Shown one piece after another: positions 3,498 through 25,117 of a stretch of DNA of 36,064 nt. Origin of the DNA: a virus; the IMG/VR virus record IMGVR_UViG_3300023103_000009, positions 1 to 36,064 of that record. One strand, given 5' to 3'. Below the pieces are notes generated by a model. The model saw only the letters and a list, made by a program, of their open reading frames with translations, did no database searches and had not been told where the DNA came from. A program made the position numbers and the translations under genes. Numbering within the stretch: position 1 is the first letter of the stretch; every line of letters starts with the position of its first letter.

Positions 3498-6043
3498 TAG
3501 TTCCTAAAGTAGTTATTTACAAATTCATTCTCTGAGTTCCCTGAAACCATCATTGTTCTTATTCCTCTCTTGTCCACGGTAACATGTGCCATAGGTTTAT
3601 TCTGAAGCATATTTTTAATAGCTTTCAATTCTCCTACAATGTCTTGCCCGTGGTTATTTTCTGCTTCCTGCTTAATCCCTGAGTAGTTCATTTGTTTGAA
3701 AATATTAGGATCTAACGTCCCATCTATAATCCCAGCCACCAAAGGAGCGTATTTTTTATTCTGAGCCACAGGAATAACGGCTTCTTCTGGTTGTAACAGA
3801 GCAAGAATGGTATCTTCTCCTGTCTGATGGCCTGGAACAGATTTAGTCCCTTTCTTATACTTAGGAATAGGTTTCGAAGCCACCACACCCGCCTGAATCG
3901 CTCCCTGAGCAAGCGCAAAGGCTGAGAATGGAAGACCAAACGTTTGAGGGCTAATAGAAATAGCCTTAGCCACTGCTTGGGCGGTATTTATAGCAATATT
4001 GAATAATGCCGCCGCCTTGTCCGCTTTTGCCTGCCTAGTTTTTATATCGGCCTCCTGTTTTGCGTACCTTGAGTTAATGACTGCTTGAGCTTGTTTATTA
4101 TCTCCGACTGCAGCAAGTTCTTTTTTCTGGTTGATCTGTAACTGTGTTAAATCCCCCTGCAGACTATTCTGATAAATTTGAGACAGCCCGTTAATAAAGG
4201 AAACTCCAAGATTAAATTGTTCCTGGCGAATGGCTTTTTTCCTGTCTTCAGCTTCTTTGGTGTTTTTCACATCCAAATCAAGTAAAGCCTTTTTCTGTGC
4301 CTGAATTTCTAGCTCTAAATCAATAGTTTCCTTTCCTGCGTTCTGAGCAAGTAGTTTTTTCTCTTCTAAGGATCCAATAGTAGCTTCAATTTCCGCGCGC
4401 TGTCCGGCTTCTTCTGCTAGTCCAGCATCTCTAATCCTTAGTATGGTATTTTTTAGCCTGAAATCATTATCTTCTACTGTTTTGTCAAAGTTTGCCTGTT
4501 GTCCTTTTTCATAATCAGCGTTAAATTTGGTCTGATCTGCTAAACGTTGATGAAGTTCTTTTTCTAAAATATCAGTATATTCCGATTCAAGTTCCTGGCC
4601 TTTTAACTTAACAGATTCAAATTCTAATCCTACTGCTTTGCCGTATCTTTGATATAAACCTATTCTCCGATCATTGTAGTATTGAGAAATCATGTTAATT
4701 TCTCCTTCTGTCTGATCGGCTAATTTAGCCCTTCTAATGGCTATTTGTTCTTCTAATGAAAGGGATGAAAGTCTACGCTTAAACTCCTTTTCAGCATTCT
4801 TAGCGGCCTCTTCTGCAGCTTTTGCCGCCTCTATCCCGCGCGCCTTTTCCGCTTCCGTTTCTTTTTTGATTGCAAGGGTTAAATTGTCAATAACCATCTG
4901 CTGGCCTCTTGCAACCCCTTGGTACTGTATGAATTCTTTAGTGCCAAAGATGTATTCTTCAGCTAGTTCCTCATTAGCTTTTTTGGAAGCCTGCAAAGCA
5001 ATAATTTCATTTTCGTAAATCTTAATCAGATTCAATCGTTTGCCGGCCGCCTGAGCCGCTGCTAGATCTTGATCTATGTATCCTTGAACTAGTTCAGACG
5101 TGGCTTTTGCCTGTGCGTTTACCTGCTTTTCGTATAGCTGATCTTCTGTTAAAAGAGCCGTTTCTAATCCCCCCACTAAATCATTTAAAAGCGAAATAGC
5201 CTTACTTAAAACGCCTGAATTGCCCGAACCTATCGTATTTAAAAGTGAATCGTATGAGTCTCCAAGGTTGGAAACCTTACCTTCCAGTGTTTCAGAAATA
5301 GCAGCCATCGCGCCTGTTACTCCTTCGGCTTCCCCTAATGAAAGAACGTAGTCGCGGATAGCCTGAGACGTAAATTTAGTTTGGGTTTCTACTCCCTTAA
5401 AGGTGAATGTTACGTTATCCCCTTCTTTTTTGGCTCTAATACCAAATTCTTTTAATCGCTCAAATTCTCCCGTCTGAGCATCTATAATACCCTCAGTAAG
5501 TTGATCGAAAGATTTACCTGTGCTGGATGCTAAGTCTCCTAATTTGGTTAGTTCTGCACGTGTAGGAATGAAACCCTGGTTGGCCAGCTTAACAAATGAT
5601 TCCGTAAGTTCAGCAACCCCGAAAGGCGTAGTGCTTGCAAAGTCTTTTATTAGGGAAAGAGAAGCCTGAGCTGCAGACTTAGATCCGAGCGTGTTTGTGA
5701 GGACTGCTTCAAGTCGCTGGAATTGACCTGTAACAGCTATGATTTCTTTAGTAAATGAAATAACCTGAGAAACAGCAAAAGCGGCCACAATTGCCCCGCC
5801 AACCTTTTGTATTCCTTTGCCAAACGCATCAGAGGATTTAGAAGTTTTGTTTATTGCATCTTCTGACTTCTTGGACTCGCTTTGTATTGTGGAATTGGTT
5901 TTTTTGGCCTCTGAATCTACCTTACGAAAATTATCTATTAACGCCTTTTCCTCAGCATTAAGATTGTTAAGGGATTTATCAGCCTTATCTAAATCGGTAG
6001 TGTCTACTACATATTTAATCCTTATATTCTGAACGTCTGCCAT
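3497..6043 (-). CDS. Tail tape measure protein
   Basis: At 848 residues the second longest protein here, and the hallmark of a long-tailed phage. Residues about 1-70 are charged and helical, 75-100 contain a Gly/Ala/Val hydrophobic segment (GGAIVAAFAVSQVISF), 105-260 match the style of the tape-measure N-domain (STTPFGVAELTESFVKLANQG), about 380-690 are long coiled coil rich in Glu, Lys, Ala and Gln, and about 690-735 form a second apolar helix region. By the usual rule of ~0.15 nm per residue the tail would be near 125 nm long; this is an estimate. It lies 42 nt after the end of the frameshift ORF of the chaperone gene, the canonical order. It serves as the ruler around which the tail tube assembles. 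Confidence 0.93.
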   Translation of the reverse strand: MADVQNIRIKYVVDTTDLDKADKSLNNLNAEEKALIDNFRKVDSEAKKTNSTIQSESKKSEDAINKTSKSSDAFGKGIQKVGGAIVAAFAVSQVISFTKEIIAVTGQFQRLEAVLTNTLGSKSAAQASLSLIKDFASTTPFGVAELTESFVKLANQGFIPTRAELTKLGDLASSTGKSFDQLTEGIIDAQTGEFERLKEFGIRAKKEGDNVTFTFKGVETQTKFTSQAIRDYVLSLGEAEGVTGAMAAISETLEGKVSNLGDSYDSLLNTIGSGNSGVLSKAISLLNDLVGGLETALLTEDQLYEKQVNAQAKATSELVQGYIDQDLAAAQAAGKRLNLIKIYENEIIALQASKKANEELAEEYIFGTKEFIQYQGVARGQQMVIDNLTLAIKKETEAEKARGIEAAKAAEEAAKNAEKEFKRRLSSLSLEEQIAIRRAKLADQTEGEINMISQYYNDRRIGLYQRYGKAVGLEFESVKLKGQELESEYTDILEKELHQRLADQTKFNADYEKGQQANFDKTVEDNDFRLKNTILRIRDAGLAEEAGQRAEIEATIGSLEEKKLLAQNAGKETIDLELEIQAQKKALLDLDVKNTKEAEDRKKAIRQEQFNLGVSFINGLSQIYQNSLQGDLTQLQINQKKELAAVGDNKQAQAVINSRYAKQEADIKTRQAKADKAAALFNIAINTAQAVAKAISISPQTFGLPFSAFALAQGAIQAGVVASKPIPKYKKGTKSVPGHQTGEDTILALLQPEEAVIPVAQNKKYAPLVAGIIDGTLDPNIFKQMNYSGIKQEAENNHGQDIVGELKAIKNMLQNKPMAHVTVDKRGIRTMMVSGNSENEFVNNYFRN

Positions 6044-24708: not shown

Positions 24709-24822
24709 TTTATAATTGCGTTTCTGATGATGTAAAACTAATAACTTTTACGATACAATCCTAATATTGTTATAACATTATTACACATTTATTATAATTA
24801 ATTGATTTTCAACGAGAATAAT
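24709..24822. promoter_or_regulatory. AT-rich divergent intergenic region with palindrome
   Basis: No ORF. The sequence is about 80% A+T. A perfect 10-bp palindrome TGTTATAACA sits at 24768-24777. On the minus strand TAGTTTTA (24740-24733) is a weak match to the -7 box TAnnTTTG, lying about 25 nt before the first early gene. No TTTG box at the right distance was found, so the early promoter here is uncertain. Confidence 0.35.
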
Positions 24823-24853
24823 TTTGAATATTGGAATGATTGTTTTACTTTTG
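24823..24853 (+). promoter_or_regulatory. Strong Bacteroidota-type promoter, plus strand
   Basis: TTTG (24823-24826), 19 nt, then TACTTTTG (24846-24853): both boxes match the Bacteroidota consensus (TTTG and TAnnTTTG) with ideal spacing. The expected transcription start, 4-8 nt after the second box, falls at 24857-24861, at the first base of the tRNA-like RNA. It is the only good plus-strand promoter found. Confidence 0.75.
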
Positions 24854-24859
24854 GATTAT

Positions 24860-25011
24860 AGTAATGTGGTGGAATTGGCAAACACACCCTCCTTGTCTCG
24901 GGGGCGCTGAATCTAAATAAAGACATTGTACAGTCGAAAGACGGGGATTGACCACCAAAACCTTGCAATGTTCCTAATTACAGCTTACAGGTTCGATGCC
25001 TGTCTTTACTG
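24860..25011 (+). tRNA. tRNA-like RNA, class II-like body with a structured ~82-nt insert
   Basis: Parts: acceptor stem AGTAATG (24860-24866) with CTTTACT (25004-25010), 6 of 7 pairs; D arm GTGGAATTGGCAAACAC, close to tRNA-Leu; anticodon stem CCTCC/GGGGG (24888-24892, 24900-24904) with loop TTGTCTC; T arm ACAGG-TTCGATG-CCTGT (24987-25003), a normal TTCRANY loop; discriminator G, no encoded CCA. Between the anticodon arm and T arm lie 82 nt instead of the usual 4-24: GCTG/CAGC base stem, ACATTG/CAATGT (24923-24928, 24966-24971) and a GTC-GAAA-GAC tetraloop hairpin. The loop would read as anticodon GUC (Asp) or, shifted, UGU, and has an unusual pyrimidine at 37. Possibly intron-bearing, an enlarged variable arm, or a tRNA mimic. 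Function in decoding is uncertain. Confidence 0.55.
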
Positions 25012-25076
25012 CACATAATAATCGTTGTACCAGAACGAGAAAGAATATTAAAGGAAGTGATTTCTTTTCCTTTATT

Positions 25077-25117
25077 AGCCCGATTGAACTGGTACTTCAA
25101 TCGGGCTTTTGCTTTTT
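25077..25117 (+). terminator. Strong rho-independent terminator, plus strand
   Basis: A perfect 12-bp stem AGCCCGATTGAA/TTCAATCGGGCT (25077-25088, 25096-25107) with 7-nt loop CTGGTAC, followed by TTTTGCTTTTT. A second, weaker hairpin AAAGGAA/TTCCTTT (25050-25056, 25067-25073) lies just before. The loop is exactly complementary to GTACCAG at 25027-25033. Its orientation ends the tRNA-like transcript; on the minus strand there is no U-tract. Confidence 0.85.

Follow-up and report, generated by a model that had tools for sequence, protein, structure and literature searches.

A tRNA-like RNA gene in a 36-kb viral record probably belongs to a phage family that combines a tRNA-Leu-type shell with variable cores

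What kind of RNA has the acceptor, D and T arms of a transfer RNA (tRNA) together with a long structured insert before its T arm? This question is raised by positions 24860-25012 on the (+) strand of the IMG/VR virus record IMGVR_UViG_3300023103_000009, the whole 36,064-nucleotide (nt) stretch of which was analysed and is called the window here. The initial annotation of this locus had proposed a tRNA with a giant variable arm, a small novel intron or a tRNA mimic. Comparison with related loci makes it very probable that the RNA belongs to a phage-restricted family derived from tRNA-Leu, the members of which we call tRNA-shell RNAs. In these RNAs the upper tRNA half (acceptor stem and D/T elbow) appears to be retained as a shell, and a hypervariable core, often a pseudoknot, would replace the anticodon and variable arms. 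Among the three proposals the tRNA mimic is therefore the one favoured, since relatives keep the elbow and the acceptor, and canonical anticodon arms occur in them at chance level.

In the window, the shell could be re-read from the sequence as it had first been described. The acceptor strands AGTAATG (24860-24866) and CTTTACT (25004-25010) form 6 of 7 pairs, U6-U67 being the mismatch, and the 3' strand is followed by the discriminator and C74 (feature 25004-25012). The D arm GTGGAATTGGCAAACAC (24869-24885) is of the tRNA-Leu type (A14, A15, G18G19, A20a), and the T arm ACAGG-UUCGAUG-CCUGU (24987-25003), normal for an elongator tRNA and carrying a TTCRA loop, is directly preceded by U48. The tRNA-Leu features A15-U48, G18G19 and A20a are thus present together; the tRNA-Leu discriminator A73 is not found in the window RNA, which has G73 (25011), a minority state among its relatives. 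Exactly 82 nt (24905-24986) separate the T arm from a putative anticodon arm, the nested hairpin CCUCC-UUGUCUC-GGGGG (24888-24904), and the stems originally claimed for this insert are all there, including a GUC-GAAA-GAC hairpin. Two of them, GCUG (24906-24909) with CAGC (24981-24984) and ACAUUG (24923-24928) with CAAUGU (24966-24971), make up the helix P2 (5' strands within 24906-24928, 3' strands within 24966-24984), which stops 2 nt short of the T stem. As an alternative to the nested hairpin, the 8-bp helix P1 between CCUUGUCU (24891-24898) and AGACGGGG (24939-24946), with a duplex energy of -9.4 kcal/mol, would cross P2 and create a pseudoknot. The window RNA was called neither as tRNA nor as transfer-messenger RNA (tmRNA) by ARAGORN, and the Rfam search of the window gave no match at gathering score, with just sub-threshold small-RNA matches in the terminator region. 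The RNA has the full set of features by which the family is defined, namely acceptor, D and T arms, U48, a long core and a helix that stops 1-3 nt short of the T stem.

Because the folded insert of the window is not more stable than its shuffles, the evidence has to come from comparison. L308, a related phage with a neighbouring protein 63% identical to that of the window, has the block from 24801 to 25013, comprising promoter and RNA, at 96.7% identity. The RNA itself differs by one change in 153 nt (99% identity), whereas the flanking genes are 70-77% identical, and the only change, A24925 to G, turns an A-U pair of the distal P2 stem into G-U. Such a near-identical RNA cassette between diverged genes implies strong constraint or recent exchange. 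The exact core pattern of the window was searched for and was present in the L308 contig alone. A second relative (L254), with an annealing protein 68% identical to that of the window, carries at the matching position a tRNA-like RNA with an unrelated core, an acceptor with 7 of 7 pairs (one of them G-U), A73 and A15-U48. This RNA has no canonical anticodon arm, and its helices are compatible with a pseudoknot (P1 UUAUAUA/UAUAUAA; P2 GCAAUU/AAUUGC, again with 2 nt left before the T stem). In 1.55 Mb of sequence from the window and its relatives, a sequence-independent descriptor (acceptor, D and T arm within 95-260 nt) had no matches other than these three RNAs, against one weak match in 1.52 Mb of shuffled sequence.

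Beyond these relatives, a pattern scan of IMG/VR (Leu-type D arm, 85-115 nt, T arm) yielded at least 46 tRNA-Leu-like candidates with long inserts that ARAGORN did not call; among the matches listed, about half were two adjacent ordinary tRNAs. One third of the candidates share the acceptor AGTCAGG/CCTGACT, and two exact scans of IMG/VR located this shell in 111 + 31 = 142 viral contigs. The same pattern was absent from 84,980 prokaryote genomes, where the 3' half alone was found in 10 contigs of metagenome-assembled genomes, all but one with long shells and several labelled Chitinophagaceae or Bacteroidetes. Among isolated phages no record had both shell ends. As far as such sequence scans can tell, the family is apparently widespread and almost confined to bacterial viruses. 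In searches of whole records, copy number reached 12 per phage, and one phage (L427) has about 27 ordinary tRNAs, tRNA-Leu included, together with five tRNA-shell RNAs. Total lengths range from about 70 to more than 190 nt, with cores of 20 to more than 150 nt. The cores are hypervariable, as distinct members were mostly singletons on clustering by core sequence, and they differ even between paralogues of one genome. No common partner was seen among the proteins around three arrays, just GIY-YIG endonucleases in one of them. These are SegE-like genes at 2206-2835 and 4233-4871, both on the (-) strand, inside the tRNA/tRNA-shell array of L427, in line with the described association of SegB with tRNA genes (PMC13096335). 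Some loci have extra hairpins in the D loop besides the core (L187:551, L203:5130, L202:10875, L228:11105 and L145, reverse strand, 5125). Moreover, the 735-kb uncultured phage LR756501 (L297) contains two tRNA-like genes with long inserts (864-980 and 3917-4026), one with the acceptor AGTTAAG/CTTAACT.

The leucine identity bases are kept in the shell, which hardly varies. Members were chosen by their acceptor and T arm alone, in loci that D-arm patterns had first brought up; of 210 AGTCAGG members, 182 had a Leu-type D arm. A15 was present in 180 of these 182, and U48 and A73 in 165 each (91%); A20a occurred in 157 of the 169 scored. The ordinary tRNA-Leu genes of the same loci have A73 in 127/127 and U48 in 126/127 cases, and an independent set with other acceptors (n = 21) showed U48 in all 21 and A73 in 17. 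In E. coli, leucylation requires A73, A15-U48, G18G19 and A20a, and a tRNA-Leu can be charged even when both its anticodon arm and its variable arm are missing (PMC9976931).

The lower half of the molecule behaves differently from that of a tRNA. Canonical anticodon arms (5 bp, 7-nt loop) were at chance, with 4 among 167 members versus 3.55 in shuffles. Among 83 non-redundant cores, 35 form a helix that, like P2, leaves exactly 2 nt between its 3' strand and the T stem, against 4.4 +- 2.8 in the shuffled controls, and the independent set repeats this (7/21 versus 1.8 by chance); offsets above 5 were at background. A crossing helix, i.e. a pseudoknot, is clear in several members (L162, L247, L061, L225), and the arrangement proposed for P1 and P2 of the window recurs in L254 and in several subfamilies. 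A test for crossing helices that considered top stems only, over all members, gave a weak result, and the P2 signal came from the test anchored on the T stem. One subfamily has compensatory changes in both crossing helices, and another has them in nested core hairpins, where both partners were exchanged in four pairs, as opposed to 1.5 in shuffles. Taken with P2, these compensatory changes indicate that the core does fold, without one structure common to all members. The Rfam tRNA model matches some relatives weakly. The initial annotation had named stems without covariation among homologues, or homologues that show a decayed ordinary tRNA, as evidence against its reading; compensatory changes were found in relatives and the family is unlike decayed tRNAs, which answers these points in part.

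The window RNA is probably also a transcription unit of its own, to judge from promoter-like and terminator-like elements around it. The window encodes a terminase, a tape measure protein, a DnaB-like helicase, an Erf-like annealing protein, a DNA methyltransferase and an endolysin; nearly all its protein genes lie on the (-) strand, and the tRNA-like sequence stands alone on the (+) strand. A probable promoter of the Bacteroidota type (24802-24826) consists of TTG (24802-24804) and TAATTTTG (24819-24826), the latter of the -7 type TAnnTTTG. At 14 nt, its spacing falls short of the textbook consensus. The conserved block shared with L308 begins at 24801, at the promoter just upstream of the RNA, and TATATTTG is found upstream of the positional homologue in L254. 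Downstream follow a trailer hairpin, H1 (25022-25038), with the 7-nt loop GUACCAG, and a putative intrinsic terminator (25077-25112), composed of a hairpin, H2 (25077-25107, 12-bp stem, loop CUGGUAC), and a T-rich tail. The two loops are fully complementary, and the (+) strand of the window has no other 7-nt kissing pair of this type. In L308 the sequence downstream of the RNA differs, yet both hairpins are kept and their loops remain complementary with changed sequence (CUCGUAC/GUACGAG), so that the kissing loop covaries. Such trailers are not general among tRNA-shell RNAs, being seen in 4 of 237.

The explanation that best fits the locus as a whole, and that we consider somewhat probable, is a dedicated phage non-coding RNA gene belonging to a family of tRNA-shell mimics or decoys. 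Host RNase P, RNase Z and the CCA enzyme would mature and protect the RNA, members with A73 might be leucylated and bound by EF-Tu, and no member would be able to decode. The most likely role would be that of a mimic which occupies or misleads tRNA-handling host factors, chiefly tRNA-targeting anti-phage nucleases or leucyl-tRNA synthetase (LeuRS), and an arms race of this sort would drive the diversification of the cores. Indeed, phage tRNAs are known as counter-defence against tRNA-cleaving systems, and some of these defence nucleases cut the variable loop of class II tRNAs (PMC13096335, PMC11555353). The decoy role as such is put forward only tentatively. Somewhat short of an even chance is the further reading that phages maintain repertoires of anticodon-less, leucine-accepting shells, the cores of which are swapped and diversified like effector modules and presented on a tRNA chassis processed by the host, so as to block host factors; if true, this would add a previously undescribed class to the RNA effectors of viruses.

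Several points weigh against the mimic interpretation. In the window, the fold energy of the insert is no better than that of shuffles (z = -0.44), and with the shell enforced 126 of 200 shuffled cores fold equally well. P2 of the window fits the rule of the family, but the nested anticodon-like hairpin competes with P1, and on modelled folding the pseudoknot and the nested arm cannot be told apart. Across the family, the crossing helix P1 is weakly enriched (Fisher p = 0.009; 6/46 individually significant). As G73 acts as an antideterminant for the LeuRS of E. coli, leucylation of the window RNA is doubtful. The counts for AGTCAGG members are biased, since the contigs behind them were picked by D-arm patterns, and no partner protein or target of the tRNA-shell RNAs was found.

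The main rival to the decoy is a regulatory or effector RNA displayed on a tRNA, in which the shell would serve as a stabilising and processing chassis and the core would bind a phage-specific protein or RNA. We regard this as rather unlikely, even if the constant shell, cores that vary between paralogues, compensatory changes in core helices within subfamilies and the insertion of new hairpins in the D loop as well all speak in its favour. A chassis would not require the leucine identity bases A15-U48 and A73 at about 91%, although descent from tRNA-Leu and gene conversion could account for them, and no target has been found for it. A functional class II tRNA that decodes with the anticodon GUC and a giant variable arm, perhaps as a miscoding or special-purpose tRNA, is improbable: the possible anticodon arm of the window (5 bp, 7-nt loop) does have U33, but position 37 is a pyrimidine, the positional homologue in L254 is without such an arm, such arms are at chance in the family and some carrier phages already possess nearly full sets of ordinary tRNAs. 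What stands of the giant variable arm is a stem that stops 2 nt short of the T stem, where the variable arm of a tRNA-Leu would end. In several relatives, however, the 5' strand of this stem lies inside another hairpin, which suggests that the anticodon and variable regions were rebuilt jointly as a pseudoknot.

Even less probable is a tRNA-Leu from which the insert would be spliced as an intron. A few other phage loci (L087, L065) do resemble tRNA-Leu(UAA) with inserts of 62-68 nt in the anticodon loop. However, default ARAGORN with introns allowed made no call in the window, and when introns of 0-200 nt were allowed across the family, real and shuffled cores were called equally often (159/180 both), and Leu anticodons were not clearly commoner in the real ones (19 versus 15). 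Moreover, a P2 strand 2 nt from the T stem leaves no 3' anticodon strand or variable loop, and removal of the insert from the window RNA does not leave a tRNA with a cognate anticodon. The small intron is thus unsupported for the family. Decayed tRNAs or remnants of attachment sites are just as improbable. Many phages use tRNA pieces as attP, and S-TIP37 and S-TIP28 provide examples beside an integrase, but the complete shell, the conserved tertiary bases, the compensatory helix changes, the promoter-like and terminator-like elements and the single change against L308 between diverged genes argue against decay, and no integrase match was obtained among the window proteins tested. The Synechococcus podovirus matches (S-TIP37, S-TIP28) were rejected as tRNA-shell RNAs, being 5' ends of tRNA-Leu adjacent to integrase genes. 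A tmRNA reading was likewise dropped: GCT GAA TCT AAA TAA in the window resembled a tag open reading frame, but members with 20-nt cores cannot hold one, neither ARAGORN nor Rfam detected a tmRNA and no conserved reading frame was seen. Overall, the initial observation is confirmed and its interpretation partly supported.

Three further loci are worth recording in their own right. In L087 (8714-8863, + strand), the 62-nt insert in the anticodon loop of tRNA-Leu(UAA) is closed by CGAGG/CCTCG, holds GGTGCGAATCC and might be a very small intron. The 68-nt insert of L065 (3273-3442, + strand) is itself tRNA-like, with the T-arm-like GAGTTCAAGTCTC followed by ACC, and this locus is possibly a tRNA nested in a tRNA. 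On the reverse strand of L060 (1350-1500), a tRNA-like shell encloses a second T-arm-like stretch, GAGAGTTCAATTCTCTC.

The tRNA-shell RNAs are missed by tRNA finders, or short ones are assigned nonsense anticodons, so that a common component of phage genomes has been overlooked. If tRNA enzymes turn out to charge or bind them, we would know of no earlier anticodon-less tRNA mimics in phages, and these RNAs would offer a direct route to the host tRNA factors that phages must block. No description of the family was found in the open-access literature, subscription papers lying outside the search.

Among known systems, tRNA-Leu shares with the family the type of D arm, A14, A15-U48, G18G19, the T arm, A73 in most members and the 2-nt gap between a variable-arm-like helix and the T stem. 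In contrast to tRNA-Leu, the family has no anticodon arm above chance, a core of variable size and frequently a pseudoknot, and the window copy has G73 and goes uncalled by ARAGORN and Rfam. Plant-virus tRNA-like structures are also viral RNAs that mimic tRNA, but they form the 3' end of a genomic RNA, whereas tRNA-shell RNAs are stand-alone genes of DNA phages with a real cloverleaf acceptor and elbow. The tRNA-Tyr of T5 and T6, which acts against retron-Eco7 and Septu, is likewise a phage-encoded, class II tRNA-derived RNA with expansion of copy number, and SegB/SegE-like GIY-YIG genes recur in one shell-RNA array; those tRNAs decode, however, and tRNA-shell RNAs are without an anticodon. 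ROOL and GOLLD are phage non-coding RNAs often near tRNA islands and with kissing loops (PMC12286853), but they are much larger, have no tRNA shell and are unrelated in sequence, and the window RNA has no Rfam match. The tmRNA (SsrA) also couples an upper tRNA half to a pseudoknotted non-tRNA domain without a working anticodon. Unlike tmRNA, tRNA-shell RNAs have an intact D arm, a core of about 100 nt without a conserved tag reading frame, Leu-type rather than Ala-type determinants and multiple diverged copies. Among the families found here or known to us, none brings together a tRNA shell, the loss of decoding and multi-copy cores that are hypervariable, and for this reason we regard tRNA-shell RNAs as a new kind; if tmRNA is counted as the same kind, they would be a variant of it. 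In either case, they parallel in nature the tRNA scaffold that has been engineered for RNA expression.
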